From assembly GCF_037027445.1 (NCBI RefSeq), contig NZ_JBANDL010000002.1, forward strand, positions 4,844,001 through 4,908,000: 64,000 bases of DNA, written 5' to 3'. Of the stretch, positions 31,897 through 52,845 are shown one piece after another. The stretch comes from Lysobacter firmicutimachus. Its GTDB lineage: Bacteria > Pseudomonadota > Gammaproteobacteria > Xanthomonadales > Xanthomonadaceae. The notes beneath the pieces were generated by a model. It had not been told where the DNA came from. It was given only the letters and a program-made list of their open reading frames with translations, and searched no databases. Within the stretch, counting starts at the first letter, position 1. Each line of letters opens with the position of its first letter. The translations under genes and the position numbers were made by a program.

Positions 31897-31912
31897 CTAG
31901 GGTCGTCCCGAG
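31897..31912. promoter_or_regulatory. T3SS-locus palindromic box 1 (CTAGGGTCGTCCCGAG)
   Basis: A near-palindrome 80 bases upstream of the Gly/Ala-rich membrane protein gene. The 19 bases CACCTAGGGTCGTCCCGAG are identical to those at 52827-52845, at the opposite edge of the T3SS locus. Confidence 0.65.
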
Positions 31913-31991
31913 GATGCCCCCGTGGCAGCGGAGGATTAGCGTCTGCATACGCGCACCTCGCCGGTGCGGGATTTTCGCTGGGAGAAGGCCC

Positions 31992-33269
31992 ATGGGCTTC
32001 GGGCTGCCAAACTTGTTCGGAGGCGGCAACCGACCGACCCTGCCCGGCCTGGGAGGGCCCAACGGCTTGCCCGATCCCCTGGGCCTGGGCGGTCACGGCC
32101 ACGGGCACGGCAACGGCGGCCCGCCGGGCCTGGACGGCGGTCTGCCGCCCGGGCTGGCCAAGCCGCACGACGGCGGTCCGAATCCGGGCGGCCATGTCGA
32201 CAACGGCAACCATCACGGCAGCGACCACAACAACGCCGGCAACGCGCCCTCGCCTTCGGGCACGACCCCGGCCACGCCCGACACGCCCCCTACGTCCAGC
32301 CACAACACGCCGAACGTGGTCAGTTCGGGTTCGCCGATCGACGACCAGATCGCCGCCTACCCCAGCCGGCTGCTGCCCGGCCAGTCGGCGCACGGCGCGA
32401 CGTCGGCGCAGGCGTTCAATCAATCCACCCAGTACCCGCCGCCGACCCTGTCCGAGCGCGCCCTGAGCAGCTTCGCCGCCTCGCCGGCGGCGATGAACCG
32501 CGCCGACGCCGTGCCGGCGAACGCGAACGCGCTGCAGGCGGCGCCGAACCAGGTCGCTGCGCTGCCGACTCCGGTCGCCAGTGCCCAGGCCGCAAGCCAG
32601 GCGCAGGCCGCGACGCCGGCGCTGGCCCTGCCGCCGGCGCATGCCAACGCAGTGCCGGCCGCGCCGATGGCGGCGATGGCGCACGGTGAGTCCTTGGCCG
32701 CGCAGCAGAGCCTGCTCAACCAACTGGCGATGATGCAGAAGCTCGGCCAGCCGCCGGCCGCGGTCGCCGCCAACGCCGCCGCGCCGCATACCGAAAACGC
32801 GACCGCGCCGAACGTGATCCCGCTGACCGTGAACACCTCGGCCAACGACCCGCGCGGCCTGCCGACCGCCCTCACCGATCGCGTGCAGCTGCTGCGCGGC
32901 GACAGCGCGCTGAACGGCGGCGCGTACGTCGGCGACGGCCCGATGCGGCGCCCGCTGGGCCGCGGCGCGCGCGTGGATGCGGCCTCGCTGACCTATTGGC
33001 TGTGGGCGCTCGGGCGAGGCGGCGTGCATCGTCCGACGCACGAGAAAGAGCCCAACCGCGAAGTGCTGCGCGCGCTGCAGTGGCTGTTCTGGGTGTTGAC
33101 CGTGGTCGCCTACGCCTGCCTGGCGACGGCGCTGATCATGTTGCTGCCGACCGGCGAACTGGTCAGCGACCGCGTCGCCACCGCCGGTGGCGGCGGTGCG
33201 CTGATGATCGGCGTAGTCGTCGCCGCGGGCGCGTGGCTGCTGGGGCGGCGGTTGAACAAACGCGGTTGA
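31992..33269 (+). CDS. Low-complexity protein with two C-terminal membrane segments; candidate T3SS substrate or translocon component
   Basis: The 425-residue protein has a Gly/Pro/His/Asn-rich N-terminal third (GLGGHGHGHGNGG), a long Ala/Pro/Gln middle region with Asn, and two hydrophobic segments near the C-terminus (LFWVLTVVAYACLATALIMLL and ALMIGVVVAAGAWLLG). No homologue is recognised. It lies at the left edge of the T3SS locus, is transcribed away from it, and carries the same upstream box as a small gene at the right edge. That suggests it belongs to the T3SS regulon. HrpF/NolX-type translocators are larger, so this is only a suggestion. Confidence 0.6.
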   Translation: MGFGLPNLFGGGNRPTLPGLGGPNGLPDPLGLGGHGHGHGNGGPPGLDGGLPPGLAKPHDGGPNPGGHVDNGNHHGSDHNNAGNAPSPSGTTPATPDTPPTSSHNTPNVVSSGSPIDDQIAAYPSRLLPGQSAHGATSAQAFNQSTQYPPPTLSERALSSFAASPAAMNRADAVPANANALQAAPNQVAALPTPVASAQAASQAQAATPALALPPAHANAVPAAPMAAMAHGESLAAQQSLLNQLAMMQKLGQPPAAVAANAAAPHTENATAPNVIPLTVNTSANDPRGLPTALTDRVQLLRGDSALNGGAYVGDGPMRRPLGRGARVDAASLTYWLWALGRGGVHRPTHEKEPNREVLRALQWLFWVLTVVAYACLATALIMLLPTGELVSDRVATAGGGGALMIGVVVAAGAWLLGRRLNKRG

Positions 33270-33612
33270 AGCGCACCTGAGATTATCCGCTGGAGCGGCC
33301 CGCCCAGTGGCCGGCACTGAGACGGGCGGAGCCCTCGGTGGGGGGCGGCGCTTGGGTCGATGGCGCCGTTTCATGAAGCGCCTGCGCGCCCCTGTCGCGG
33401 CTTACGCCGCTCCTACAGGCGATGGGTCGCGGCCGCGAGGCGATGGCTGCGCGTCCCTGGGTCGCGGCTCGCGCCGCTCCTACCCTTCGATGGCGCTGCT
33501 CACCCTGTGCCGCGCAAGCGCCCGACCGTTCCCCGTTCCCAGCCCCACAAACGAAAACGCCGGGCCCGAAGGCCCGGCGTTCGCGCGACTCGGAGTCGGT
33601 TGCGGCCGGCGC
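33270..33612. other. Intergenic region with short palindromes
   Basis: Two copies of GTCGCGGCTyrCGCCGCTCCTAC (33396 and 33460, where y/r mark variable bases) occur here, plus the terminator at 33556. No gene is supported. Confidence 0.6.
33556..33581 (-). terminator. Intrinsic terminator of the left T3SS transcript
   Basis: On the minus strand AACGCCGGGCC-TTCG-GGCCCGGCGTT is an 11-bp stem with a stable tetraloop, followed by TTCGTTTG. It lies 32 bases after the stop of the 110-residue protein gene. Confidence 0.8.
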
Positions 33613-33945
33613 TTAGTTGCGCTTGGCCATCGCGCCCTGGGCTTCGCCCATGGTCTTCAGCGCGGTGCTGACGGCGTTGATGAACATCGAGTACATCTGG
33701 CTCTGCACGGTCAGCTCGGTCGAGTCGGCCGCGGTCGGCTTGTCGCCGATGGCCTCGGCCTTGTTCATGAGCGCTTCGCCAGCCTTTTCGATCAGCTTGC
33801 CCATCGCGGTGGCGAATGCCACCAGCCAGCCGCCTGCGGCGCCCGCGCGGCCGCCGCGCTTGGAACCGCCGGTCTCGTCGACGCCGGCGCTATCGACCAT
33901 CTGCTGCTGCGAAAACTGAGCGTACGAGGCATTGATGTCCGACAT
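33613..33945 (-). CDS. Small helical T3SS protein; candidate needle/filament subunit (paralogue of 41200-41562)
   Basis: The 110-residue product starts MSDINASYAQFSQQQM and has a Gly-rich hinge (GGSKRGGRAGAAGGW) followed by two long helices (LVAFATAMGKLIEKAGEALMNKA and LTVQSQMYSMFINAVSTALKTMGEAQGAMAKR). The layout, with a Trp before an A-x-x-A-M/W-G helix and a C-terminal QxxF-IN-x-x-S/T-x-L-KT, is shared with the 120-residue protein at 41200. Small helical T3SS proteins of this shape are needle, inner rod or EspA-like filament subunits. A good Shine-Dalgarno (AGGAG) and an upstream box at 34056 support a functional gene. Which role applies is not settled. Confidence 0.65.
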   Translation of the reverse strand: MSDINASYAQFSQQQMVDSAGVDETGGSKRGGRAGAAGGWLVAFATAMGKLIEKAGEALMNKAEAIGDKPTAADSTELTVQSQMYSMFINAVSTALKTMGEAQGAMAKRN

Positions 33946-34055
33946 GACACTCTCCTGGTGATTGGGCGATATCAGCCGCTTGTCGCGTTTCGGTGCGGAA
34001 GCGGGATTGAATGACTGGGTGGGTGAATTATCGGCCCGGGCCGAAGCCTGTACAG

Positions 34056-34071
34056 CTGGGGCGTTCCCTAG
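34056..34071 (-). promoter_or_regulatory. T3SS-locus palindromic box 3 (CTAGGGAACGCCCCAG on the minus strand)
   Basis: It matches CTAGGG-N4-CCCNAG and lies 111 bases upstream of the 33945 start. Confidence 0.6.
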
Positions 34072-34131
34072 GGGAATGCAGGCCGCGGGGCGCGGAATGT
34101 GAGGGCTCTCACGCTCCGCGCCGCGCCGGGT

Positions 34132-34617
34132 TCAGCGATAGGTCTTGACCGGGCGCTTGGCGCCCAGCGACGACGGCAAACCGGCCGGCGGCGCCGGCGG
34201 CGCGCCGCCGCCGCCGTTGCCGTTCGCGGCCGCCGAGGTCTCGCCGTCGGCCTGCGCCTGCAGCCACTGCAGGGCCTTGTCCTCGCCGTCGCGCTGGCGG
34301 CGCTGGGCGAACTCGAGCGCGCGCTTGACGGTCGGGTTGTTGAGCGGCTCGGCGAAGGCCTTGCTCAGCCCGTCGCGGTCGCCGGCCTGGATCACCCGGC
34401 TCTCCTGCAGCACGTCCAGGGTCTGGCTGAGGTTGGCCATCAGCGCCTGCGGGTCGGCGACCTCGTCCGGCTTGGCCTCGTCGAGGGCGCGGGTGAAGTG
34501 GTGCATCAGCGCGTCGCGATCGGCCGCGTCGATGCCGGACTGCTCGCGCAGCAGGGCCTCGAAGTCGGCGACCATTTGATCGCGCTGCTCCTGGGTCGGG
34601 GTGAAGGGCTGGGACAT
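34132..34617 (-). CDS. T3SS-locus protein of unknown function
   Basis: The 161-residue product starts MSQPFTPTQEQRDQMVADFEALLREQSG after a clear AGGAGA ribosome site. It is predicted helical through residue 125 (DRDALMHHFTRALDEA, LMANLSQTLDVLQESRVIQ) and then Gly/Pro-rich to the end. No family is recognised. There is no signal peptide. Position between the SctP-side genes and the 110-residue protein suggests a chaperone, substrate or regulator of the T3SS. Confidence 0.65.
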   Translation of the reverse strand: MSQPFTPTQEQRDQMVADFEALLREQSGIDAADRDALMHHFTRALDEAKPDEVADPQALMANLSQTLDVLQESRVIQAGDRDGLSKAFAEPLNNPTVKRALEFAQRRQRDGEDKALQWLQAQADGETSAAANGNGGGGAPPAPPAGLPSSLGAKRPVKTYR

Positions 34618-34835
34618 CGGACTCTCCTGTCGCAACTGATGGTGAAAACGAAACCTGTTCGAACGGAACCAGTAGACAACGCGTCCGCGCCGCATCGGAA
34701 GCGCACCCGCGCCGATCTTCGACGCGGTGCGGATTTCCGCCGCGACCGCGCAGTATCGCCAGGCGCGCGCGGCGGCGAATCCTCGGGCCGCCCCCAGGGT
34801 CTGCGCGCCGGTGCGCGCCAGCGCCCCGGCGCCGC

Positions 34836-35702
34836 TCAGCGCTTCGGCGCGAAACCGCCGTCGCGCAAAGCGACGGTGCGAAAATCGATGCCGACCGTAC
34901 GTCCGATCGCGGCCATGCCGTCGCGCACGCTGGCGCGCTCGGCCGGGCTGCGCGCGTTCTGCCAGGCGGCGCCGGCCAAGGTCGCGACCAGGCCGTACAG
35001 CTCGGCCGCTTCCTGCAGTTGTTGCGGTCGCATCGAGGTCAGCTTCTGCCCGCGCGCCAGGCTGTCGGCCAAGCGCGCGCGCAACCCCGAGAACGCGGCA
35101 TCGTGGTCGCTGCGCGCGCCGTCGTTGGCCAAGGTCCAACCGTAAATCATGAAAGCGTTGAGCACGTCGCCGAAGTTGCGCGCGGAATAGCCGTGCGCCT
35201 GCAACCGTTGGCCGAACTGCGCCTGCAGGCGGCCGGACTGCAGCGCCTGCAGCACCCGGCCGCGGTCGTCGCCGCCGATCTGTTGCGCCAGCAATCGACG
35301 GAATTGCGGATGGCGCTCGAACGCATCGTCGATGTCGCGCAACACCTCGCTGTCGAGGCTGGGGCGACGGCCGGTCAGGCTGTCGGCGAAGGCGGCGTTG
35401 AGCGCGGCCGACACGGCCGGCCGCGGAGCGAAGTCGAGGCTGTCCAGCGTCGCGCCGCCGCGTGCGGGCGCTTGCTGGCCGCGGGCGCGCGGGCGCGCCT
35501 CGCGACGGCCGGGCTCGGCATCGTCGCGGTGGCGCATGATCTGCGAATGGGTGTACGCGCCGACGCCGTCGATCAGCGGCGCGTTGTCCTGCGCCGCCAC
35601 GACCCAGGTGCCGGCCAGCCATAGCGTCGCGGCCAGGCCGAGCCGCAACGGGCGGCGCCGCAACGCAGCGGCGCGGGTAGAGAGGAGCGTGGACGGGGCC
35701 AT
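34836..35702 (-). CDS. Exported protein of unknown function in the T3SS operon (DUF6683-like?)
   Basis: The 288-residue precursor has a signal peptide (LRLGLAATLWLAGTWVVAAQ) and lies 52 bases after the SctP gene. The mature part is helical with segments AHGYSARNFGDVLNAFMIYGWTLAND and LQEAAELYGLVATLAGAAWQNARS. These remind me of the DUF6683 type, a weak recollection. A Sec signal in a T3SS operon suggests a periplasmic accessory factor. A lytic transglycosylase motif is not evident. Confidence 0.65.
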   Translation of the reverse strand: MAPSTLLSTRAAALRRRPLRLGLAATLWLAGTWVVAAQDNAPLIDGVGAYTHSQIMRHRDDAEPGRREARPRARGQQAPARGGATLDSLDFAPRPAVSAALNAAFADSLTGRRPSLDSEVLRDIDDAFERHPQFRRLLAQQIGGDDRGRVLQALQSGRLQAQFGQRLQAHGYSARNFGDVLNAFMIYGWTLANDGARSDHDAAFSGLRARLADSLARGQKLTSMRPQQLQEAAELYGLVATLAGAAWQNARSPAERASVRDGMAAIGRTVGIDFRTVALRDGGFAPKR

Positions 35703-35754
35703 GGCGGTCTCCTGCCGCGCGCCGGCGAAGGCGCGCGGCGCGAGTCGTTCGCGG

Positions 35755-36510
35755 TCAGCCGTGGAAATGCGGATCGATGCTGAGCTGGCCGAGATTGCGC
35801 GCGGCGAAGCGGCGCGCCAGCTCGGGACCGGCCTCGCGGATCGCATCGAAGCTGGAGCGCGAGCGCACATCGGCGCGCAACTGCCAGCCCTCGGCGGTCT
35901 TGGTCAGCAGCAGATCGGTGCCCGGCAAGGTGTCGTCGGACAAGCGCAGCAGGACCTGGCCGTCGTCGCCGCTGGCGCCGCCGTCGCTGACCGCGAGCTG
36001 ACGCACGTGGCGCTCGACCAGGTCGGCGAACGCGGCTGCGTTCGAGGTCGGTTGGCTGGGCTGGGTCTGGGTCGCGGCATCGCGCATCGCCAGCTGCGCC
36101 TGCCACATCGCCGACGCCTCGGCCGGCGGCAGCGAAGCGTCGGCGCGGTCGCCGCCGGCCTGGCGCGATTCCTCATGGCTGCGCTCGCCGACCGCATGAT
36201 GGCGCGCGGTATTGGTCGCGGCGCGCTCGCGCACCGAATCGCCGATCAGGCGCTGGCTGGTCTGCTCGGCGGCCTCGCCTTCGCCTTCCAGCAAACCGAA
36301 GCCGCTGTCCTGCGCGGCGTCCTGGCTCTGCGCGCCGGACTGGGCGAACGTGCCCTGGCGCTGCTGCATCAGGCTGCGGAACTGGTCGACGCTCTCCGGC
36401 GCGGCCGGCTGGCGGGGCTGTTCGCGCGGCTGCTTGGCCTGTTCGGCGGCCTCGTTGCGCTTGGCCGAATCGGATTCGGACGTCGAGGAGCTGTTGCGGA
36501 TCATGCTCAT
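35755..36510 (-). CDS. sctP: Type III secretion protein SctP (needle-length regulator)
   Basis: The 251-residue protein has a long disordered, Gln/Ser/Glu-rich N-terminal region and a compact C-terminal segment (residues about 165-250): LRLSDDTLPGTDLLLTKTAEGWQLRADVRSRSSFDAIREAGPELARRFAARNLGQLSIDPHF. This layout is typical of the HrpP/YscP/FliK group, which sets needle length and switches substrate specificity through contact with SctU. The position directly downstream of sctO fits. Sequence identity in this family is low, so position carries part of the call. Confidence 0.78.
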   Translation of the reverse strand: MSMIRNSSSTSESDSAKRNEAAEQAKQPREQPRQPAAPESVDQFRSLMQQRQGTFAQSGAQSQDAAQDSGFGLLEGEGEAAEQTSQRLIGDSVRERAATNTARHHAVGERSHEESRQAGGDRADASLPPAEASAMWQAQLAMRDAATQTQPSQPTSNAAAFADLVERHVRQLAVSDGGASGDDGQVLLRLSDDTLPGTDLLLTKTAEGWQLRADVRSRSSFDAIREAGPELARRFAARNLGQLSIDPHFHG

Positions 36511-36522
36511 GGCGACCTCGGT

Positions 36523-41040: not shown

Positions 41041-41132
41041 GGCCCTGTTCTCCTGAAACGTGGGGTCCGAACGAACAAAGAAACGGAACGACGCTCGACG
41101 CTGCGACCGCGCGCCCCGCACCACCGACGACG

Positions 41133-41152
41133 CCCGGGTCCTAGGACCCGGG
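41133..41152. promoter_or_regulatory. Perfect 20-bp palindrome upstream of sctI (CCCGGGTCCTAGGACCCGGG)
   Basis: It is placed 93 bases before the sctI start. The GGGTCCT half matches the core of the boxes at 31897 and 41676, so it may be a variant of the same regulatory site. Confidence 0.5.
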
Positions 41153-41199
41153 TGCCGTTCCGGCAGGCTGCGGCGACGTCGGGCCGCGAGGCGCCGATA

Positions 41200-41562
41200 T
41201 CAGCCGCTGCGCGAGGCCAGCGTCTTCAGCGAATCGCCGACGCTGTTCTGCGAAGTGGCGGCGTTGTTGGAGATGAACTGCATGCGCAGGCTCTCGGCGG
41301 TCAGCGCGACCATGCTGGAGGGCTGGTCGTTGCCGCCGCCGATCTGGCCGGACAGGTCGGTGATGCGCGCGGCCTGCGAGTCCAGGGTGGCGCCCCAGGC
41401 CTTGGACATGGCCTCGTACCAGCTGCCGCCGCCACCGCCGCCGACGGCACCGCCGCCACCGCCGCCGCGCGAAACGCTGAGGTTGTTGGAGTTGTTGGCG
41501 TTGGCGATGAACGTGTTCACCAAGCCGGCGCCGTTGGCGGGGTTAACCGTGTTGTTGCTCAT
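41200..41562 (-). CDS. Small helical T3SS protein; candidate needle/filament subunit
   Basis: The 120-residue product begins MSNNTVNPANGAGLVNTF, has a Gly-rich linker of about 15 residues (SRGGGGGGAVGGGGGGSW) and a C-terminal helical half (YEAMSKAWGATLDSQAARITDLSGQI ... LTAESLRMQFISNNAATSQNSVGDSLKTLASR). The last part is similar in pattern to the 110-residue protein at 33613. Position directly before sctI is where needle genes often lie, so this is the first candidate for SctF. The Gly linker is unusual for a needle subunit. A good AGGAG site is present. Confidence 0.65.
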   Translation of the reverse strand: MSNNTVNPANGAGLVNTFIANANNSNNLSVSRGGGGGGAVGGGGGGSWYEAMSKAWGATLDSQAARITDLSGQIGGGNDQPSSMVALTAESLRMQFISNNAATSQNSVGDSLKTLASRSG

Positions 41563-41675
41563 TGACGTCTCTCCTGCGGAGTGCGGCGAGGCCGCTGAAT
41601 GGCGTGGAACTACGGATGGATGTTGCCGAGCCTAATGAAACCGGTTCGGGGCGTGCGAAACCACCTAGTGAAAAC

Positions 41676-41691
41676 CCTGGGTCCTCCCTAG
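41676..41691 (-). promoter_or_regulatory. T3SS-locus palindromic box 4 (CTAGGGAGGACCCAGG on the minus strand)
   Basis: It fits CTAGGG-N4-CCC, overlaps the sctD stop, and lies 114 bases upstream of the 41562 start, nearly the same distance as box 3 from its gene. Confidence 0.55.
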
Positions 41692-43176: not shown

Positions 43177-45240
43177 TCAGGCGTTGACCTGGCCCGCCTG
43201 CACGATCCGCAGATCGGGCGCGAGTTCCTGGTAGGACAACACCGGCAGTTCGAAGAAATCGATCTCCAGCAGCTTGCGCAGATGGCGGCGAACGTCCAGT
43301 GAACACAGCAGCACCGGCTTGACCCCGTCGGCCTGGCGGCCCAGGTGCGAGCGCACCTCGGCGCCGAGCCGGCCGGCCAGTTCCGGCGAGATCGCCAGCT
43401 GGGTGGTGCCGCCGGTGACGCGCACCGACTGGCGCAGGCGATCCTCCAGTTCCGGATGGATCAGCAGCACCTGCATGGTGCGTTCGCCGTCGGCGTAGCG
43501 ATCGGCGATTTCGCGCTTGAGCGCCACCCGCACGTACTCGGTCAGCAGGACCACATCCTTCTCGCGCCCGCCGACATCGGTGATCGCCTCGAACGCGTCG
43601 CGCAGGTTGCGGATCGGCACGCCCTCCTCGACCAGCCGGCGCAGCACGTCGGCGACCCGCTGCGGCGCGACCACGCGCAGCATTTCCTTGACCAGGTCGG
43701 GGTAGTCGCGCTGCATGCGCCCGAACAGGTTGGAGGTTTCCTGAATGCCGATGAAGCTGCCCATGCGCCGCTCCAGCGCGGCGCGGCAGTGCTCGATCAC
43801 CGTGCTCAGGCCGTCGCGGATGTCGCCGCCGCTCTGGCCGGTCCATTCGCCGGCCAGCGGCGGGAAGAACCCGGCCAGCTTGGGCGCGTTGGCGTCGCCG
43901 GCGCGGGCCGGGCGGAACTGCGCGTTCGGCGACAGCCGGCCGAAGGCGATGCGCGCGCCGAACGCGGTCAGGCGATAGCCGCCGATGCCGTCGCCGTTGT
44001 CCAGGTCGGCGGCGATGCGCAGGCTCGGCACCGGCAGCGGCACGCCGTATTCCTCGCGCAGCCGGCGCGCGACCTCGACCAGCCGCTCGCGCGCGGCCGG
44101 CTCGCCGAACGCGGCCGCCAGCGACGGCGCCAGCTCCAGCTGCAACGGCGCCGGCGGCGCGACTTCGTCCTGGTTGAGCGGCTTCTCGTCGGCCGCAAGC
44201 TCGCCCGCGGGCACCTTGAACGCGCGCCGCAGCACCGCGTGATGGTGGCGATAGCGCCAGGCGGCGATGCCGAGCAGGACCACCGACAGCAACAAGAACA
44301 CCGGCTTGGGGAAGCCCGGCACGAACACCATCAGGAACGCCAGGCAGCCGGTGATCAGCAGCACGCGCGGCTGGCCGGAGACCTGGCGGGTGATCGACTC
44401 GCCGAGGTGGCGGTCGTCCTCGTCGCCGGCGGTGCGGGTCACCACCAGGCCGGCGGCGATGGTGGCCAGGATGGCCGGGATCTGCGAGACCAGGCCGTCG
44501 CCGATGGTGAGGATGCTGTAGGTGTGGGTCGCGTCGCTGAGCGGCATGCCCTTTTGCAGCACGCCGATGGCCAGGCCGCCGAGCAGGTTGATGATGATGA
44601 TGACGATGCCGGCGATGGCGTCGCCCTTCACGAACTTCATCGCGCCGTCCAGGCTGCCGTGCAGCTGGCTTTCCACCTCCAGCAACCGGCGCTTGCGCTT
44701 GGCTTCGTCCTTGTCGATCAGCCCGGCGCGCAAGTCCGAGTCGATCGACAACTGCTTGCCGGGCATGGCGTCGAGGGTGAAGCGCGCGGCGACCTCGGCC
44801 ACGCGCTCGGCGCCCTTGGCGATGACGATGAACTGGACCACCGTGATGATCAGGAACACCACGAAGCCGACCACCAGGTTGCCGCCGGCGACCAGGCTGC
44901 CGAAGGTCTCGACGATATGGCCGCCGTTGGCTTCCAGCAGGATCGAGCGGGTGATCGCGATCGACAGCGACAGGCGGAACAGCGTGGTCAGCAGCAGCAC
45001 GCTGGGGAAACTGGAAAATGCGACCGGCGTCGGAATATACAGGGCGATCAGCAGCAGGCCGAAGCCGATCGCGATGTTGACCGCGACCAGGGTGTCGATG
45101 ATCGCCAGCGGCAGCGGCAGGATCATCACCCCGATGATGGTCACCGCGGCCGCGGCCAGGACCACGTCGCTGTAGCCCGCACGGCGACGCGGCGGGGCGC
45201 CGGGCGTTGCGGCGATCAACGAGCTCAGCAATGCGCGCAT
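43177..45240 (-). CDS. sctV: Type III secretion export gate protein SctV
   Basis: The 687-residue protein is of the FlhA/YscV type: seven or eight membrane segments in the first half (VVLAAAAVTIIGVMILPLPL, IAIGFGLLLIALYIPTP, NLVVGFVVFLIITVVQF), the FHIPEP-type loop with FTLDAMPGKQLSIDSDLRAGLIDKDEAKRKR, and a large cytoplasmic domain that forms the nonameric export ring. It is the first gene of the minus-strand T3SS block. Promoter candidates lie in the 377-bp AT-richer gap upstream. Confidence 0.97.
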   Translation of the reverse strand: MRALLSSLIAATPGAPPRRRAGYSDVVLAAAAVTIIGVMILPLPLAIIDTLVAVNIAIGFGLLLIALYIPTPVAFSSFPSVLLLTTLFRLSLSIAITRSILLEANGGHIVETFGSLVAGGNLVVGFVVFLIITVVQFIVIAKGAERVAEVAARFTLDAMPGKQLSIDSDLRAGLIDKDEAKRKRRLLEVESQLHGSLDGAMKFVKGDAIAGIVIIIINLLGGLAIGVLQKGMPLSDATHTYSILTIGDGLVSQIPAILATIAAGLVVTRTAGDEDDRHLGESITRQVSGQPRVLLITGCLAFLMVFVPGFPKPVFLLLSVVLLGIAAWRYRHHHAVLRRAFKVPAGELAADEKPLNQDEVAPPAPLQLELAPSLAAAFGEPAARERLVEVARRLREEYGVPLPVPSLRIAADLDNGDGIGGYRLTAFGARIAFGRLSPNAQFRPARAGDANAPKLAGFFPPLAGEWTGQSGGDIRDGLSTVIEHCRAALERRMGSFIGIQETSNLFGRMQRDYPDLVKEMLRVVAPQRVADVLRRLVEEGVPIRNLRDAFEAITDVGGREKDVVLLTEYVRVALKREIADRYADGERTMQVLLIHPELEDRLRQSVRVTGGTTQLAISPELAGRLGAEVRSHLGRQADGVKPVLLCSLDVRRHLRKLLEIDFFELPVLSYQELAPDLRIVQAGQVNA

Positions 45241-45617
45241 GCGGTCAACCCCGGACTCTGGCGATGGCGGCCGGGCGCGGCGCGCGCGCGAACAGCGACG
45301 CGCGAGCCCGCGGGGTCTGGCCGCGGTTCGCGATCGGAAGGAGGTCGGCCCTGTCTCGAACGGTGAAAGCAGTCACTGCTTTGTCACGTATCCCTGAGCA
45401 CCCATGCATGGCGCCTGTCCTTACACGATCCCGGTTCGGACGGCCGATACTAAGTGCTGTTTGTCATCATTTGTATGAACGAGATGCAATTTGCGCGACT
45501 TGCGCACAATCACGTCCGCTTGTTTGCGCAGAGCCACATTCGCGCGCATTCATCATTGTTTTTGTGAGCGCGTGCGCAATTGCGTCACCGTGTTCGACTA
45601 ACGTAGGGTCCTACGCG
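45241..45617. promoter_or_regulatory. Promoter region upstream of sctV
   Basis: This 377-bp gap is locally AT-richer than the rest (45440-45600). Its right end holds CGTAGGGTCCTACG (45602-45615), an inverted repeat sharing the GGGTCCT core with the other boxes of the locus. It may regulate sctV, or act as a weak terminator for the FliO-like gene ending at 45618. No gene is seen. Confidence 0.5.
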
Positions 45618-46082
45618 TCAGGATTCGCCCGCAGCCGCGGGCGGAGTCTGTGCCAGGCTGCGTTCCGGGGCCTGGCCGGCGCCGTCCTCGGCCGGCGCCG
45701 GCGCGATGTCGGCGGCGTCCAGCTCGGCGATCAGGCTGGGCGATTGCCCGCCCACGCCGACCGCGAGCGCGCGGCCGCTGCGCGTGCGCAGCACGACGAT
45801 GCGTTCGCGCGGGCCGACCGGGAGCACCTGCACGATCGTCAACGGCGCATCGCGCGCCACCAGGCCATGGCGCTTGCGCAGGTAGTACAGGACCGCGATC
45901 AGACCGACCAGGACCACCGCCACTGGCAGCATGATCGACAGCAGTTCGAAGAAGAACGACGGCGGTTCGGCAGCAGCGGCGGCCGGCTTGGCGGCCGGCG
46001 CCGCGAGGGCGGCCGACCACGGCCAGACAGCCGCGGCGAAGCCAAGGCGAAGCAGCGGACGCAACAGGAAAGGGATGGGCAT
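45618..46082 (-). CDS. FliO-like membrane protein inside the T3SS locus
   Basis: The 154-residue protein has an N-terminal signal-like segment (LRLGFAAAVWPWSAALAAP), a membrane helix at about 47-67 (ELLSIMLPVAVVLVGLIAVLYYL), and the segment PLTIVQVLPVGPRERIVVLRTRSGRALAVGVGGQSPSLIAELD, the conserved FliO core. FliO is a chaperone for the FliP ring of flagella and is normally missing from injectisomes. Here it is transcribed away from the histidine kinase gene, next to sctV, with no flagellar gene in the window. It may assist SctR assembly. Confidence 0.8.
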   Translation of the reverse strand: MPIPFLLRPLLRLGFAAAVWPWSAALAAPAAKPAAAAAEPPSFFFELLSIMLPVAVVLVGLIAVLYYLRKRHGLVARDAPLTIVQVLPVGPRERIVVLRTRSGRALAVGVGGQSPSLIAELDAADIAPAPAEDGAGQAPERSLAQTPPAAAGES

Positions 46083-46220
46083 GACGAGTCGGGACGGAAC
46101 CGGAACAGGGAGTGCGCGGCCGGCGTCGCCGCGGCGACATACCGTAACAGCCCGCTGCGCCGCCGCCACCCTGGTCGCGTTTCACGCCGCACAACGCCGG
46201 CCCGAGGCAATGATGTGAAC

Positions 46221-47300
46221 ATGGTCACGACTTCTTCCCGCTCCGCCGGCCCGCGCGCGCAGCCGGCCGCATCGGCGCAGGCCGGCTTGCTCGAGGCGGT
46301 ACCGTTCGCCTGCGCCCTGTTCTCCGCCGGCGGCGCCCTGCTCGCCGGCAACGCGCGCTACCGCGAGGAGTTCGGCGAATTGGCCGAACACGCTCAGCGC
46401 GAGGCGCTGTTGGCGCTGCTGCATGCCGGCGGCGAGGACGAGGCGCGCGAAGTGCGCGCCCCGCACAGCGGCCGCTGGTACGCCCTGCACTGGGGCCGCG
46501 CCGAGCATCAGGGCGCGCCGGCGCAGGTGCTGACCGCGATCGACATCAGCGAGCGCATCGAAACCCTGGACTCGCACAAGACCCGCCAGGAGAAGCTGCT
46601 GTTCACCTCGCGCCTGATGTCGGTCGGCGAGATGGCCGCGACCCTGGCGCACGAACTCAATCAGCCGCTCGCGGCGATCATGAATTATCTGAACGGCAGT
46701 CTGCGCCTGGTCGAACAAGCCGGCGGCCCGGTCCAGGTCGAGCGCGCCCTGCAGGCCGCGCGCACCCAGGCCGAGCACGCCAGCGCGGTGATCGCGCGGG
46801 TGCGCGAGTTCGTGCGCGCGCGCGAGCCGCGACGCGACGCCCACGACCTGGGCCAGATCGCCGCGACCGTGCTGGAACTGCTGCGGCTGGAGGCCGAGCG
46901 CCTGCAACTGCGCATCGACCTGGGCCTGCCCGCGCAACTGGCGCCGGTGTTCGCCGACCGGGTCATGATCGAGCAGGTGCTGCTGAACCTGGTCAAGAAC
47001 GCGATCGAGGCCATGCGCGATATCCCGACCGCGCGCCGCGAGCTGCGCATCGACGCGCGGATGAACCTCGACGAGCAGATCGAGGTGCGGGTGTCCGACC
47101 GCGGCGCCGGGCTCAGCCCGGCCGAGCAGGACCAGCTGTTCTCGCCGTTCTTCACCACCAAGACCGACGGCCTCGGCATCGGCCTGGCGATCTGCCGCTC
47201 GATCGTCGAGTACCACCAGGGCCGGCTGTTCTTCGAACCGCGCGAAGGCGGCGGCAGCGTGTTCGGCTTCACCCTGCCGCGCTACGAGGCCCGCGCTTGA
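46221..47300 (+). CDS. FixL-like sensor histidine kinase in the T3SS locus
   Basis: The 359-residue cytoplasmic protein has an N-terminal PAS-like region (residues about 20-115) with no heme-His pattern recognisable, a HisKA segment SVGEMAATLAHELNQPLAAIMNYL (His144), and an HATPase domain with N box LVKNAIEAMRD, DRGAGLSP and KTDGLGIGLAICRSI. No membrane segment is seen. It is followed by a FixJ-like regulator after 243 bases, so the pair probably controls the T3SS. Confidence 0.92.
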   Translation: MVTTSSRSAGPRAQPAASAQAGLLEAVPFACALFSAGGALLAGNARYREEFGELAEHAQREALLALLHAGGEDEAREVRAPHSGRWYALHWGRAEHQGAPAQVLTAIDISERIETLDSHKTRQEKLLFTSRLMSVGEMAATLAHELNQPLAAIMNYLNGSLRLVEQAGGPVQVERALQAARTQAEHASAVIARVREFVRAREPRRDAHDLGQIAATVLELLRLEAERLQLRIDLGLPAQLAPVFADRVMIEQVLLNLVKNAIEAMRDIPTARRELRIDARMNLDEQIEVRVSDRGAGLSPAEQDQLFSPFFTTKTDGLGIGLAICRSIVEYHQGRLFFEPREGGGSVFGFTLPRYEARA

Positions 47301-47543
47301 TGACCCGGATCGCGACTGCCGCGCTTGCGCGCATGACAAAGGTCACGACCGCGCCCCCCTCCTGTCGGGTTATACCGTCGCGCCCGGATCCGCTCCGCGC
47401 GCCGGACCGGCCTCGGCCCCGAAGCGCGCACCGATGACGCCGATGACCCCGCCCCGCGTCCTGCCCGCTCCCGCCGTCGGCCCCGCTGCCGGGCGCGGGC
47501 GCGCGCATCCGCTCGCGCGGGGCCGGAGCGCGAGGTATCGCCC

Positions 47544-48146
47544 ATGACCGAAGCCCGGATCTACCTGATCGACGACAACGACGGTTTCCGCGATTCGACC
47601 GCCTGGCTGCTGGAAACCGCCGGTTTCGAAGTGCTGGCCTATCCGTCCGGACCGGCCTTCCTCGACGCCTTCGCCGGCGAACGCCAGGGCGGCGGCGCCC
47701 AGTGCATCGTCTGCGATATCCGCATGCCGCTGATGAGCGGCCTGCAGCTGCAGGAGGAACTGCGCCGGCGCGGCATCGGCCTGCCGCTGGTGTTCGTCAC
47801 CGCGCACGGCGACGTGCCCCTGGCGGTCGAGGCGATGCGCAAGGGCGCGTCCAACTTCCTCGAGAAGCCCTTCAACGACGAGACCCTGATCGACGCGCTG
47901 CGCACCGCGATCGCCAACGCCCGCCAGCACGCCGGCGCCGATGCCGGCGACGATCGCCTGTCGCGGCTCAGCCCGCGCGAGCGCCAGGTCATGGACCTGG
48001 TGGTGGCCAGCAAGCCGAACAAGATCATCGCCGACGTGCTCGGCATCAGCGTCAAGACCGTGGAACTGCATCGATCGAACATGATGAACAAACTCGGAGT
48101 ACGCTCGCTGCCCGAACTGATGAAGGTGGCGCTGGGACATGGTTGA
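47544..48146 (+). CDS. FixJ/NarL-type response regulator in the T3SS locus
   Basis: The 200-residue protein has a receiver domain (IYLIDDNDGFRD; phosphoacceptor Asp58 in CDIRMPLMSG; VTAHGD; FLEKPF) and a LuxR-type HTH (LSPRERQVMDLVVASKPNKIIADVLGISVKTVELHRSNMMNKLGV). It is directly upstream of sctQ and overlaps it by 8 bases, so it is translated with the apparatus genes. It is the best candidate for the factor that binds the palindromic boxes. Confidence 0.95.
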   Translation: MTEARIYLIDDNDGFRDSTAWLLETAGFEVLAYPSGPAFLDAFAGERQGGGAQCIVCDIRMPLMSGLQLQEELRRRGIGLPLVFVTAHGDVPLAVEAMRKGASNFLEKPFNDETLIDALRTAIANARQHAGADAGDDRLSRLSPRERQVMDLVVASKPNKIIADVLGISVKTVELHRSNMMNKLGVRSLPELMKVALGHG

Positions 48147-49215
48147 GACGAGCGAAGCGGCCGCACCGGCCGCCCATCCCGCCGCCGCACCGGTGCGCGG
48201 CCGTCTGCCGGCGCTGCACCCTTGGCAGGCCGAGGCCCTGCGCGACGTGTTCGCCCTGCGCCAGCGCTGGCCGACCCGCGACGGCGCCTGGCTGCAGTTC
48301 CTGCCGGCGCAGGCGGTGCACGGGGAAGTCTTCACCCTGGAAGGCGACGGCGCGCGGATCAAGCTGCATTTCGAAAGCAACCCGAGCCAGGAAGCCGATA
48401 CCGGGCTGCATTGGAGCGACTACCAGGGCCGCTCGCGCCTGTTGGCCTGGAGCCTGGCGCACGAAACGCAGCTGATGCGGCTGAGCCAGGCGATCGACGT
48501 CGCCCTGATCCCGGTCGCCGACGACAACGACCCGATCCGCAGCGCGCATGCCGAGGCCGAGGCCGAGCTCGACGGACTGTGGCTGGCCTTCGTCATCGGC
48601 GATCCGTCCGGACAGCAGGTGCTCAGCCGGGGCAGCCTGCGCCTGCCGGTGAACTGGGTCGGCCAGTTGCTGTCGCGCTCGGACATCGTCGAGCCGGTGC
48701 AGGACCCGAACGCGATCGCCCGCTGGGGCGACCTGCCGGTGCCGGTAGCGCTGCGCTGGAACGGCCCGCAGTTGCGTTACGACCAATTCCGCCAGCTGCG
48801 TCCGGGCGACGTGCTGGTGATCGGCAACGCCCAGCGTCCGCCGCCGGTGCAGGCGCAGGTGCCGGGCTTCGCCTGGCCGCTGAGCGCGCTCGCCGACGGC
48901 TGGCGCATCGACGGCCCGCCCTTGACCCTTGCCACGCACCAGGAGACTTCCGCGATGTCCGACACCGAGTCCGCCGCCCCCGAGTCCGCGGAACCCACTG
49001 CGCCCGACGTGCCGGTCCGGCTCGACTTCGATCTCGGCCGCCTGGAGTGCAAGTACCAGGAGCTGTCCGGCTTCCAGCCCGGCTACGTGTTCGCCCTGCC
49101 CTCGCGCCTAGAAGGCGCGAACGTGGTGATCCGCGCCAACGGCCGCGACGCCGGCCGCGGCGAGATCGTGGCGGTCGGCGACACCCTCGGCGTGCGGCTG
49201 ATCAGCTGGAGCTGA
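48139..49215 (+). CDS. sctQ: Type III secretion C-ring/sorting platform protein SctQ
   Basis: The 358-residue protein has an N-terminal region of about 190 residues and a C-terminal SpoA (surface presentation) domain: VRLDFDLGRLECKYQELSGFQPGYVFALPSRLEGANVVIRANGRDAGRGEIVAVGDTLGVRLISW. A second SpoA-like region covers LPVPVALRWNGPQLRYDQFRQLRPGDVLVIGN. SctQ binds SctK, SctL and substrate-chaperone complexes. It overlaps the preceding regulator gene. Confidence 0.92.
   Translation: MVETSEAAAPAAHPAAAPVRGRLPALHPWQAEALRDVFALRQRWPTRDGAWLQFLPAQAVHGEVFTLEGDGARIKLHFESNPSQEADTGLHWSDYQGRSRLLAWSLAHETQLMRLSQAIDVALIPVADDNDPIRSAHAEAEAELDGLWLAFVIGDPSGQQVLSRGSLRLPVNWVGQLLSRSDIVEPVQDPNAIARWGDLPVPVALRWNGPQLRYDQFRQLRPGDVLVIGNAQRPPPVQAQVPGFAWPLSALADGWRIDGPPLTLATHQETSAMSDTESAAPESAEPTAPDVPVRLDFDLGRLECKYQELSGFQPGYVFALPSRLEGANVVIRANGRDAGRGEIVAVGDTLGVRLISWS
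48955..49215 (+). CDS. Probable internal translation product SctQ-C
   Basis: An in-frame ATG (MSDTESAAPESAEPT) inside sctQ is preceded by AGGAGA at 8 bases spacing. It would yield an 86-residue protein holding only the C-terminal SpoA domain. YscQ, SpaO and SsaQ are known to make such internal products needed for platform assembly. Here it is predicted from the ribosome site and domain boundary. Confidence 0.65.
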   Translation: MSDTESAAPESAEPTAPDVPVRLDFDLGRLECKYQELSGFQPGYVFALPSRLEGANVVIRANGRDAGRGEIVAVGDTLGVRLISWS

Positions 49216-49218
49216 CCG

Positions 49219-50172
49219 ATGGATTTCAGTTCGTTCTCGCCGGCGCTGGTGCTGGTCACGGTGGTCAGCCTGGCGCTGGCCCCGTTCGTCGCGGTGATGG
49301 TGACGTCCTTCACCAAGATCGTGGTCGTGCTGAGCCTGCTGCGCAACGCGCTGGGCCTGCAGCAGGTGCCGCCGAACGTGGTCATCAACGGCCTGGCGAT
49401 CGTGCTGTCGATCTACGTGATGTATCCGGTGATCCTGGAAACCCACGACGCGATCAATGCGCGCCTGAGCGGCCAACCGGCGGCGAGCGCGACTCAGGGC
49501 CAGCCGCCGGTCGGCGCCGCCGCGCCCGCGGGCGCACCGGCCGCCAGCGCAGCGACAGCGCCTGCGGCCAGCGCTGCGCCGGTCGCCGTCAATGCCGCTG
49601 CGACGCCCGCCGCGAACGCGCCGGCGCCGACCGGCTTGGCCGCCGGCACCAGCGTGACCGTCACCACCACCGCCACGCCGGTCGCCGCTGCGCCCGCCGC
49701 ACCGGCCGCGGCCGCGACCACCGCCGGCGGCGCGGGCAAACCGCCCTCGGCCCTGCTCAGCGCCGGCGGCAAGATGGACACCGCGCGCCTGTTGGCGCTG
49801 ATGGACGCCGGCAAGGAGCCGCTGCGCAAGTTCCTGATCAAGCACTCCAGCGATGCCGAGCGGGCGTTCTTCCTGCGCAGCGCCCAGCGCCTGCTGCCGC
49901 CGGCCGCGCGCGGCGACATCTCGGTGAACGACTTCATCGTGGTGATCCCCGCCTTCACCGTCAGCGAACTCACCGCCGCGTTCCAGATCGGCTTCCTGAT
50001 CTTCCTGCCGTTCCTGATCATCGACCTGGTGGTGTCCAACATCCTGCTCTCGCTGGGCATGATGATGCTGTCCCCCACCACCGTCTCGCTGCCGTTCAAG
50101 CTGCTGCTGTTCGTGCTGATCGGCGGCTGGGCCAAGCTGGTGCACGGCTTGGTGTTGACCTACGGCGGCTAG
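49219..50172 (+). CDS. sctR: Type III secretion export gate protein SctR, with a large Ala/Pro insertion
   Basis: The 317-residue protein matches FliP/SctR: N-terminal helices (LVLVTVVSLALAPFVAVMVTSFTKIVVVLSLLRNALGLQQVPPNVVINGLAIVLSIYVMYPVI), then C-terminal FIVVIPAFTVSELTAAFQIGFLIFLPFLIIDLVVSNILLSLGMMMLSPTTVSLPFKLLLFVLIGGW. Family members are about 215-220 residues. Here about 95 residues rich in Ala, Pro and Thr (residues 84-180) are inserted in the loop after the second helix. Confidence 0.95.
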   Translation: MDFSSFSPALVLVTVVSLALAPFVAVMVTSFTKIVVVLSLLRNALGLQQVPPNVVINGLAIVLSIYVMYPVILETHDAINARLSGQPAASATQGQPPVGAAAPAGAPAASAATAPAASAAPVAVNAAATPAANAPAPTGLAAGTSVTVTTTATPVAAAPAAPAAAATTAGGAGKPPSALLSAGGKMDTARLLALMDAGKEPLRKFLIKHSSDAERAFFLRSAQRLLPPAARGDISVNDFIVVIPAFTVSELTAAFQIGFLIFLPFLIIDLVVSNILLSLGMMMLSPTTVSLPFKLLLFVLIGGWAKLVHGLVLTYGG

Positions 50173-50182
50173 CGCCGCCTTC

Positions 50183-50268
50183 GGGATTGGGGATTCGGGA
50201 TTCGCCGAACCCCTCCCGGCCCCGCACCGCTTTAGCTTTCCAATCCCCAATCCCAAATCCCCAATCCC
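50183..50268 (+). repeat. Inverted heptamer arms between sctR and sctS
   Basis: GGGATTG, GGGATTC, GGGATTC (50183-50203) face CAATCCC, CAATCCC, AAATCCC, CAATCCC (50241-50268). They can form a hairpin of about 21 bp with a loop of about 38 bases. It ends 7 bases before the sctS ATG, so it may influence sctS translation. Confidence 0.85.
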
Positions 50269-50275
50269 GGCCGCT

Positions 50276-50542
50276 ATGGGCGACATGCTAGAACTCACCA
50301 AACAGGCCCTGTGGCTGACCCTGCTGTTGTCGGGGCCGCCGGTGGTGGCTGCGGCCGTGGTGGGCCTGGTGGTGGCCTTCATCCAGGCCGCAACCCAGTT
50401 GCAGGAGCAGACCTTCGCCTACGCGATCAAGTTCGCGGTGATCGTGGTGACCCTGTTCGTCACCGCGTCGATGATCGGCGGCACGCTGTACACCTTCGCC
50501 GACCGGATCTTCATCGACTTCCCGGGCCTGGTCCGGCACTAA
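50276..50542 (+). CDS. sctS: Type III secretion export gate protein SctS
   Basis: The 88-residue protein has the two membrane helices of FliQ/SctS: LWLTLLLSGPPVVAAAVVGLVVAFIQAATQLQEQTFAYAIKFAVIVVTLFVTASMIGGTLYTFADRIF. No clear ribosome site precedes 50276, since the heptamer arm occupies that place. An ATG at 50285 (MLELTKQALWL) is a possible start and would match the family length as well. Confidence 0.93.
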   Translation: MGDMLELTKQALWLTLLLSGPPVVAAAVVGLVVAFIQAATQLQEQTFAYAIKFAVIVVTLFVTASMIGGTLYTFADRIFIDFPGLVRH

Positions 50543-50556
50543 GGCGCAGGCGGGCG

Positions 50557-51342
50557 ATGAATTTCGATTCGGTCGGCAACGTCCTGCTCGCGCTGGGGCT
50601 GGTGCTGCCGCGGGTGATCGGGGCCTTCATGATGCTGCCGCTGCTCACCTCGGAGAACATGCCCCCACTGGTGCGCAACAGCTTCATGGTCAGCCTGGCG
50701 ATCATCGCCATCCCGGTGGCCATGAACGGCGTGCCGCTCAATACCCTGGGCACCTTCGCCTGGGCGCCGATCATCCTCAAAGAGCTGTTCATCGGCGTAT
50801 CGATCGGCTTCTGCTTCGGCATGGTGTTCTGGGCGATCAGCGCCGCGGGCAACATCATCGACACCCAGGTCGGCATGACCCTGGCGCAGGTGTTCGACCC
50901 GATCCAGGGCCATCAGGCCTCGCTGCACGGCAGCTTCCTGTCGCAATTCGCGGCCTGGCTGTTCATGGCCAGCGGCGCCTTCCTGGTGTTCCTCGACCTG
51001 CTGCTGTCGAGCTACGCGATGTGGTCGGTGACCTCGTACTTCCCCGACCTGCATCCGATCGGCATGGAGCTGTTCGTCGGACAATTCAGCTACCTGATGA
51101 CCGCGCTGCTGGTGCTGGCCGCGCCGGCGATGGTGGTGCTGCTGCTGATCGACCTGTCGTTCGGCCTGGTCAACCGCTTCGCCCCGCAGCTCAACGTCTT
51201 CACCATCACCATGCCGATCAAGGCCTGGCTGGCGACCTGGATCATCCTGCTGATGCTCGGCGTGTACGTCGAGATCGTGCTCGACCGCCTGGCCGACAAC
51301 CGCGGCTTGCTGGATGCCTTGAACCGCGTGTTCGGCGGGTGA
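50557..51342 (+). CDS. sctT: Type III secretion export gate protein SctT
   Basis: The 261-residue protein is of the FliR/SctT family with about six membrane helices: LLALGLVLPRVIGAFMMLPLLTSENMPPLVRNSFMVSLAI, KELFIGVSIGFCFGMVFWAISAAGNIIDTQVGMTLAQVFDPIQG, and FVGQFSYLMTALLVLAAPAMVVLLLIDLSFGLVNRFAPQLNVFTITMPIKAWLATWII. It is 14 bases downstream of sctS, completing the R-S-T gate order. Confidence 0.96.
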   Translation: MNFDSVGNVLLALGLVLPRVIGAFMMLPLLTSENMPPLVRNSFMVSLAIIAIPVAMNGVPLNTLGTFAWAPIILKELFIGVSIGFCFGMVFWAISAAGNIIDTQVGMTLAQVFDPIQGHQASLHGSFLSQFAAWLFMASGAFLVFLDLLLSSYAMWSVTSYFPDLHPIGMELFVGQFSYLMTALLVLAAPAMVVLLLIDLSFGLVNRFAPQLNVFTITMPIKAWLATWIILLMLGVYVEIVLDRLADNRGLLDALNRVFGG

Positions 51343-51346
51343 GGCG

Positions 51347-51402
51347 GGGATTCGGGATTCGGGATTCGGGATTCGGGATTCGGGATTCGGGATTCGGGAT
51401 TC
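51347..51402 (+). repeat. Heptamer tandem array (GGGATTC)8
   Basis: Eight exact units starting 4 bases after the sctT stop, with the same heptamer that forms the arms between sctR and sctS. The gap 51343-51601 otherwise holds only a MITE-like inverted repeat. Confidence 0.95.
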
Positions 51403-51448
51403 GGCGGAGCATGCTGCCGATGCCCCTTTGGATCAACGCTGGCGGTTC

Positions 51449-51556
51449 TCCCTTTGAAAAAGGGAGGTAGGAATTTGCTTTTGGCTTCGCTTCGATGCGC
51501 TTGCTCGTGAAAGCAACCGCAACGGCAAATCCCCCCTAGCTCCCTTTTTCAAATGG
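51449..51556 (+). repeat. MITE-like inverted repeat
   Basis: The left arm CTCCCTTTGAAAAAGGGAGG and the right arm CTCCCTTTTTCAAATGGGGA are imperfect inverted copies about 30 bases long, around a 50-base centre. A single arm-like copy lies at 31790 outside the T3SS locus. No gene is inside. Confidence 0.6.
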
Positions 51557-51601
51557 GGAAACAGCGAGAGGATTGCGAAGGCCGTCCACAACCGCCGCGC
51601 C

Positions 51602-52711
51602 TCAGCGCGGCTCTTCCACCGGCGGCGGCAGTTCCGGCGTGCTGTCGTCGCCGTCGCGCAGGCGGCGCACGCCTTCGGCCCAGTGCAGGACCTCGGCCAC
51701 CGCTTCGAAGAACTCGTTGCCGATGTAGTCGTCCAGGGCGACGCGCTCGTTGAGGCCGCGCGCGAGTTCGACGTTCTGCAGGATCGGCACCCCCGCCTCG
51801 ACCGCCGCGGCCTTGATCTGCTCGGCCATGTAGCCCTCGCCCTTGGCGACCACGACCGGCAGGTCGGTCACGCCGTGCTCGTACTGCAGGGCGATGGCGA
51901 TGTGGGTGGGATTGGTCACGACGACGTTCGACTGGCGGACGGCATTGAGCATGTTCTGCTGCGACCATTCCTGATGCAACTGCCGGCGCCGGCTCTTCAC
52001 ATGCGGGTCGCCCTCGTTCTCCTTGACCTCCTGCTGGATGTCGCGGCGGCTCATGCGCAGCTGCTTCAGGTAGGCGAACTTCTGGTACCAGACGTCGATC
52101 GCCGAGACGAAGAAGAACACGAAGATCGTCCACACCGAGATCCGCACCAGCCCGTGCCAGATGCCCGCGCCCATCGCCGCCGGCGGCGCGTAGGGCAGCA
52201 GCATCAGCTGGGCCAGCATCTGGAACAGGACGAAACCGCCGATGCCGATCAGGGCGGCGCTCTTGAGCACCGACTTGACCAGCTCGACCAGGTTGTCCAT
52301 GGAGAACATCTTCTTCAGCCCTTCGGCCGGGTTCATCTTCTCCATGCTGGGCTTGAGCTTCTCCAGGGTCAGGATCGGCCCGACCTGGAGGAACTCGACG
52401 ATCACGCCCAGGAACACCGCCATCGCCAGCAACGGCAGCGACAGCCACAGCAGGGCGTCGAACGCCGCTGCGCCGGATTCGCGCAGGGCGTCGCCGAAGG
52501 GTTGGTTGATCGCCTTGAGGCAGGTCTCGAACAGCCGGATCAGCTTGGTGCGCATGAAGTCCAGCATCAGCCAGCCGCATACCACCCAGCCGAGCACCAG
52601 CACCGTGCTGGTCAGCTCCTTGCTCTTGGCGACATTGCCTTCCTTGCGCGCGTCCCGGATCCGTTTTGGGGTCGGCGGTTCGGTCTTGTCGGCGCCCTGG
52701 TCCTTCGCCAT
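51602..52711 (-). CDS. sctU: Type III secretion switch protein SctU
   Basis: The 369-residue protein has the FlhB/YscU layout: a basic N-terminus, four membrane helices, KPSMEKMNPAEGLKKMFS, and the cytoplasmic domain with the autocleavage site NPTH at residues 267-270 (VVVTNPTHIAIALQYE). Cleavage there changes substrate specificity together with SctP. It is transcribed opposite to sctQ-T, which is a rearranged order. The start at 52711 follows family length; a frame extension to 52792 is possible. Confidence 0.97.
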   Translation of the reverse strand: MAKDQGADKTEPPTPKRIRDARKEGNVAKSKELTSTVLVLGWVVCGWLMLDFMRTKLIRLFETCLKAINQPFGDALRESGAAAFDALLWLSLPLLAMAVFLGVIVEFLQVGPILTLEKLKPSMEKMNPAEGLKKMFSMDNLVELVKSVLKSAALIGIGGFVLFQMLAQLMLLPYAPPAAMGAGIWHGLVRISVWTIFVFFFVSAIDVWYQKFAYLKQLRMSRRDIQQEVKENEGDPHVKSRRRQLHQEWSQQNMLNAVRQSNVVVTNPTHIAIALQYEHGVTDLPVVVAKGEGYMAEQIKAAAVEAGVPILQNVELARGLNERVALDDYIGNEFFEAVAEVLHWAEGVRRLRDGDDSTPELPPPVEEPR

Positions 52712-52829
52712 GCGCGGCCCTTGCAGCGAGAGGGTGACGAGGCTATCACGCAGACCGGACCGCGACCGTGGCGGCGTCGCCACTCCGGTCACGCTCCGGC
52801 GCCGGGCAGCTGAACCGGGGCGAGGGCAC

Positions 52830-52845
52830 CTAGGGTCGTCCCGAG
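52830..52845. promoter_or_regulatory. T3SS-locus palindromic box 2 (CTAGGGTCGTCCCGAG)
   Basis: Identical to box 1, 68 bases upstream of the 107-residue protein gene. It could also serve sctU, which starts 119 bases to the left and is divergent. Confidence 0.65.

Follow-up and report, generated by a model that had tools for sequence, protein, structure and literature searches.

The palindromic box and the genes it precedes

The stretch of Lysobacter firmicutimachus DNA analyzed here, referred to as the window (64,000 nucleotides (nt) of contig NZ_JBANDL010000002.1, with a G+C content of 70%, from a genome of 5.32 Mb), contains a type III secretion system (T3SS) cluster in which a 16-base-pair (bp) palindrome, CTAGGG-N4-CCCNAG, stands upstream of several genes. 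An earlier note on this DNA had proposed this box as a regulatory site defining a T3SS regulon, perhaps bound by a FixJ-like regulator encoded in the locus. The genes concerned are listed by window coordinates.

31992..33269, + strand: box-preceded gene (the 31992 gene), 425 residues, without a Pfam or NCBIfam match
33613..33945, - strand: sctF, needle subunit, 110 residues; PF09392 at 8.4e-05, below the family cut-off, and a weak TIGR02105 match
41200..41562, - strand: box-preceded gene (the 41562 gene), 120 residues, glycine rich; first gene before sctI-sctJ-sctK-sctL-sctN-sctO-sctP
46221..47300, + strand: histidine kinase with HisKA and HATPase_c domains, the proposed partner of the regulator
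47544..48146, + strand: FixJ-like response regulator with receiver and GerE domains (PF00072, PF00196), the proposed box-binding activator
52913..53236, + strand: box-preceded gene (the 52913 gene), 107 residues, without a family match, divergent from sctU (ATG at 52711)

The boxes, and the sites named by the earlier note that differ from them, are as follows.

31897..31912, + strand: exact box, CTAGGGTCGTCCCGAG, 79 nt before the 31992 start; TAGCGT at 31937-31942, 24 nt after the box
34056..34071, - strand: exact box, CTAGGGAACGCCCCAG, 110 nt before sctF; GATAAT 23 nt after the box
41665..41680, - strand: degenerate box, CCAGGGTTTTCACTAG, 102 nt before the 41562 start; at this promoter it is the copy that is conserved
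52830..52845, + strand: exact box, CTAGGGTCGTCCCGAG, 67 nt before the 52913 start; TACATT at 52869-52874, 23 nt after the box
41676..41691, - strand: site given earlier for the 41562 gene, CTAGGGAGGACCCAGG; not conserved, overlapping the real box by 5 nt
41133..41152, - strand: site given earlier for sctI; loop part of a conserved hairpin, not a box
45602..45615, - strand: site given earlier for sctV; half-conserved palindrome at the far end of the long conserved sctV leader, not a box

The 19-mer CACCTAGGGTCGTCCCGAG, described earlier as identical before the 31992 and 52913 genes, was indeed found exactly at 31894-31912 and 52827-52845, and at up to three mismatches it gave 2 window matches against 0.04 expected. 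Exact matches to the 16-mer palindrome were found at 31897-31912, 34056-34071(-) and 52830-52845, the second being the variant already reported before sctF. In the whole genome, the exact pattern had 7+5 strand matches against 2+1 for a reversed control. A model combining the box with a -10 hexamer recovered all four promoter boxes in the window and one weak extra match at 34782, with 0 matches in 12 Markov sequences. The extra match (34782-34797, - strand) was left out, as the stretch could be aligned with G016, the closest relative, but with none of the nine remaining genomes.

Phylogenetic footprint

When the upstream regions of related genomes were aligned, the box formed a shared block before the 31992 gene in 10 of 10 genomes and was exact before the 52913 gene in all 10. 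The sctF box was exact in four of the 10, with one mismatch in five and two mismatches in one. SctF itself is strongly diverged in the genus, with 21-26% identity between clades, yet its promoter box is retained. Upstream of the 41562 gene, the block shared by all 10 genomes was CCMGGG-N4-CACTAG, and two Luteimonas loci (L141 and L142) had an exact box at the same place. The distances of 111 and 114 bases quoted earlier for the sctF and 41562 sites are arithmetically correct (34056-33945 and 41676-41562), but the second belongs to coordinates 11 bases away from the conserved copy. Thus four of the six promoters named by the earlier note carry a box, one of them at other coordinates, and the sctI and sctV sites were rejected.

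The perfect palindrome assigned to sctI proved to lie in a conserved GC-rich hairpin (41125-41165, - strand) between the 41562 gene and sctI. In eight sequences, after exclusion of one near-duplicate and one aligned genome without a clear hairpin, 3 of the 15 predicted pairs were changed on both sides; the hairpin may set the expression ratio or mRNA stability. The sctV palindrome has another spacing (6-N2-6) and only one of its halves is conserved. The sctV leader (45240-45618, - strand) is long and conserved, with invariant blocks such as CACTTAGTATCGG and ACGTTAG-N-CGAA, and no box was found within the conserved stretch. An Rfam scan of 30000-55500 returned no known RNA family at the gathering threshold.

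Promoter geometry

Sites matching CTAGGG-N4-[CT]CCNAG were pooled, palindromes being read both ways, to give 184 unique sites, or 168 without near-copies; this sample is enriched for box loci and includes orthologous promoters, features that cannot themselves yield a peak at one spacing. Among the 168 sites, the hexamer TANNNT lay at offset 23 after the box in 25 cases and at 24 in 22 (47 in total), against a background of 0.69 per other offset. For offsets 22-25, 50 hexamers were observed, whereas shuffled downstream DNA gave a mean of 5.2 and a maximum of 15. In the profile of the 47 sites, conservation extended beyond the 16-mer, to A-C on its upstream side and K-T on its downstream side. 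With the hexamer taken as -12 to -7, the box occupies about -51 to -36, or one base farther up. Some promoters had two adjacent 16-bp boxes, of which the proximal copy was often degenerate. Judged by its fixed distance to the -10 hexamer, the box is a promoter element.

These properties also dispose of the idea that the box is a repeat, a terminator or a chance GC-rich palindrome rather than a protein operator, a reading to which the scarcity of loose matches relative to the reversed control and the sctI hairpin lend something, but which is already contradicted by the fixed -10 distance and by conservation of the box amid otherwise diverged upstream DNA and is hardly credible.

Co-occurrence of the box and the FixJ-like regulator

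The product of 47544-48146 was the only DNA-binding family match among the scanned open reading frames of the cluster. Its best solved relatives are FixJ (5xso) and 1yio, but it scored 215.1 bits against the NCBIfam FixJ model, below the cut-off of 255; with FixJ the closest model and structure and the equivalog cut-off missed, it is best regarded as FixJ-like rather than FixJ itself. The regulator was found in 15 of 20 genomes of the genus, in which exact-box strand matches summed to 157 (6-14 each) against 39 for the reversed control; in the five regulator-negative genomes the sums were 2 and 1.

A wider comparison started from SctV: of 555 T3SS loci detected in this way, the 80 best were used. 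In a first count, 17 loci encoded the regulator and 16 of these had an exact box, while among 63 regulator-negative loci, an exact box was present in a Caulobacter locus (L163) alone. A search of that genome revealed a regulator orthologue (52%) on another contig, beside a kinase and relatives of sctQ and sctR. After L163 was reclassified, an exact box was present in 17 of 18 regulator-positive loci and in 0 of the 62 other T3SS loci, judged inside the retrieved stretch; one of the loci scored as lacking the regulator (L194) encodes a relative with 35% identity. The regulator-positive loci span Lysobacter, Luteimonas, Dyella, Hahella (47% GC) and Caulobacter. When the family was searched later, 24 of 198 genomes proved to carry the regulator; of these 24, the 18 previously unused were taken. 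All 18 loci had an exact box (15 were new and three identical to named loci), and a box with up to one mismatch followed by TANNNT at 23 or 24 nt was present in 13 of the 18, compared with 1 of the 62 negatives. For 12 other box-containing genomes from outside the genus, exact-box strand matches totalled 104 against 21 for the control; two of the 12, G020 and G028, showed no enrichment. Many of the Luteimonas sites precede relatives of Lysobacter cargo families. In both Dyella loci, an exact box with TAGGTT precedes sctV, suggesting that the set of switched T3SS genes differs between lineages.

Sites outside the cluster and candidate cargo

Exact matches in the genome of L. firmicutimachus fell at ten positions in nine loci, and eight of the nine loci lie before T3SS operons (three) or dispersed effector-like genes (five). 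The label "effector-like" is our judgement, based on the lack of a Sec-like stretch together with enzymatic domains. The dispersed genes, including two with a one-mismatch box, are listed by the genome position of the box.

583546/583564, double box: calpain-like protease
2774469 and 4943166: two lipase-like proteins
3816102: protein without any Pfam match
4699514/4699530, tandem boxes: LysM protein with a sub-threshold CHAP match
3244878, one mismatch, CTAGGG intact: VanY-domain protein
2500782, one mismatch, CTAGGG intact: small glycine-rich protein

In 16 dispersed proteins, seven of them from this genome, no Sec-like hydrophobic stretch was found in the first 40 residues (crude hydropathy, maximum 1.37). 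One site is thus common to T3SS promoters and unlinked effector-like genes, whose products are predicted to be secreted. As a check on prediction, the five genomes in which the orthologue of the L005 gene lacked an exact box were all found to carry, 93-96 nt upstream, a box with one mismatch that is followed by TAGGGT at 25 nt. The L005 effector family was not adopted as a marker; it was present in 13 of the 20 genus genomes, all regulator-positive, and absent from the regulator-positive G001 and G002.

A box-like sequence, CTAGGGTTATCCCCAG, was also observed 138 nt before mreB in L076, L098 and L101; in L. firmicutimachus (L018) the site has one mismatch and lies 125 nt before mreB. No TANNNT was found at 23 or 24 nt after this conserved site.

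Other features of the cluster

The 31992 gene product has two hydrophobic C-terminal stretches, as judged by eye, and our guess is that it is translocator-like. The kinase and response regulator genes sit inside the T3SS cluster, an arrangement also described in L. capsici (PMC10384520) and in L. antibioticus (PMC13163355). Pfam found no sensor domain in the kinase, and no box was found upstream of its gene either in 11 aligned sequences or in the window scan, which served as a check for autoregulation. A FliO-like protein is encoded at 45618-46169(-) within this non-flagellar cluster, and tandem 7-bp GGGATTC-type repeats lie at 51350-51405 between sctT and sctU, with similar strings near the box in L066. 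The whole genome has only two secretin-domain genes, neither in the T3SS cluster, and no box with up to one mismatch was found at either in the stretches examined; a lack of a T3SS secretin has also been published for other Lysobacter (PMC4657364). In G001, the cluster is split over three distant places (L122, L123 and L124) of a one-contig genome and sctR matched in separate pieces, reflecting either rearrangement or an assembly error.

Proposed mechanism and alternatives

The fixed -10 distance, the conservation across genera and the dispersed effector-like targets strongly support the earlier claim of a site defining a T3SS regulon. On this sequence evidence, the box very probably serves a dedicated T3SS regulon as its operator, to which the cluster's FixJ-like regulator would bind and from which it would activate transcription. 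From the box, its spacing, its conservation and its co-occurrence with the regulator, we infer a route from signal and phosphorylation to binding, activation and secretion of the products. The kinase (46221-47300) presumably phosphorylates the adjoining regulator (47544-48146), which would bind as a dimer to CTAGGG-N4-CCCNAG, one half-site per subunit, the extended form being near AC-CTAGGG-N4-CCCNAG-KT. The box, centred at about -44, ends 23-24 nt before a sigma-70-like -10 element, so that the regulator may act as a class II activator substituting for a -35 element. The 31992 gene, sctF, the 41562-sctI operon, the 52913 gene and the unlinked effector-like genes would be switched on. The kinase-regulator operon and sctV are probably driven by other, box-free promoters here, so that the sensor and export gate would precede the needle, rod and cargo, which would be produced on signal.

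Several points weigh against this interpretation. The argument rests on sequence, from which we infer binding, expression and phosphorylation, and the genus profile does not by itself identify the binder, as joint loss of regulator, T3SS and cargo could occur. Most of the regulator-positive loci come from one family, so the counts are not independent, and for the 62 negatives, which were judged inside the retrieved stretch only, a genome-wide look was taken only at L163, after it had contradicted the rule. One regulator-positive locus (L138) has a one-mismatch box only, and 5 of the 18 later loci lack TANNNT at 23 or 24 nt. Exact matches were not enriched in Caulobacter (5 against 6) or in G028 (3 against 3). 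Hahella has seven sites; four of them have a well-placed -10, but no obvious effector follows any of these. The exact site at 3317272 in L. firmicutimachus has no gene within range. Loose matches are common: in the window, 26 were found at up to two mismatches against 14.65 expected, and the genome search suggested in the earlier note, in which the exact box exceeded the reversed control, gave 36+36 against 68+69 at one mismatch, fewer than in the control. Such counts are therefore uninformative alone, sequence does not suffice by itself, and loose motif counting was dropped as evidence.

The alternative that survives best is that another, unlinked common regulator binds the box and the FixJ-like protein merely co-travels with the T3SS. 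Joint loss would give an identical profile, and binding by the FixJ-like protein is itself deduced, but an unlinked regulator would need equal specificity across Alpha- and Gammaproteobacteria with 47-73% GC. It is also at odds with the 0 exact boxes in ten loci in which a relative of the 41562 gene is encoded but the regulator is not, and with the recognition-helix string KTVELHR, which, among the proteins compared, is common to the 13 aligned box-linked regulators and not present in the four Caulobacter paralogues. We regard this alternative as unlikely.

Binding by the LuxR-type autoinducer-binding solo of the genome (C2:1568834) was also considered. The CT-N12-AG frame of the box would fit a lux box as well, the genome has one PF03472 protein, and the solo has an orthologue in both T3SS-positive Lysobacter queried and none in the five regulator-negative genomes. 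Outside the genus, however, the solo does not track the box, being absent from 10 of the 12 box-positive genomes, including Dyella, Hahella and Caulobacter, and present only in G023 and G025. It was rejected as the binder and is a very improbable candidate. The FixJ-like regulator, favored by its co-occurrence with the box and by this absence of the solo, is the putative binder, as the earlier note had suggested.

Implications

A 2015 survey of five Lysobacter strains reported neither relatives of known effector genes nor a T3SS secretin (PMC4657364), a 2023 paper stated that the function of the T3SS two-component system was not yet elucidated (PMC10384520), and a 2026 paper described four machine-predicted effectors adjoining the T3SS cluster (PMC13163355). 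The rule of site plus -10 spacing names a likely regulator and a list of candidate cargo across genera, and the role of the T3SS in a predatory biocontrol genus becomes directly testable. A more speculative and unlikely extension is that the T3SS acts as a self-wiring weapon that is portable together with its kinase, regulator and box; in its hosts (Lysobacteraceae, Dyella, Hahella and Caulobacter) it would recruit unrelated genes as cargo when these gain a box, and it may inject into fungi or oomycetes and also into bacterial prey. The case for bacterial prey comes from the predicted cargo, in which enzymes of peptidoglycan type (VanY, and LysM with a CHAP-like domain) accompany lipase- and calpain-like proteins; if true, such injection would be a novelty among type III systems.

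Comparison with known systems

The HrpX/PIP and HrpL boxes are shared cis-elements that define T3SS regulons and have been used to find effectors. They involve other regulator classes and sequences, and neither site was found at the four promoters here: the PIP consensus (TTCGB-N15-TTCGB) had 3 window matches against 1.90 expected, and the HrpL consensus (GGAACC-N14-18-CCAC) had 0, in line with the earlier note. Lux-type boxes share the CT-N12-AG frame and the position next to the -35, but the LuxR solo does not track the box here. Regulators of the FixJ/StyR/TodT type have the same receiver and GerE domains, and the sites of StyR and TodT are a comparable dyad with a short spacer; the box sequence and targets differ. 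Among the open-license papers searched by title or abstract start, no description of the box was found.

The closest parallel is SsrA-SsrB of Salmonella SPI-2, in which an 18-bp palindrome is present at promoters and dispersed effectors (PMC2837388). Both systems have a T3SS-encoded kinase with a GerE-type response regulator and, at T3SS promoters and dispersed effector genes alike, a palindrome whose halves are 4 bp apart. SsrB, however, is NarL-like, recognizes flexible, degenerate 7-4-7 heptamers and has two palindromes at its own operon (PMC2837388), whereas the present system pairs a FixJ-like regulator with a stringent 6-N4-6 box that is often doubled and at a fixed distance from the -10, and no box was found at the kinase-regulator operon in the window scan or in the 11 aligned sequences. 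What is known is therefore the SsrA-SsrB-type logic; what is new is the FixJ-like regulator, the stringent box, the fixed spacing and the tandem boxes, in a T3SS of soil bacteria.

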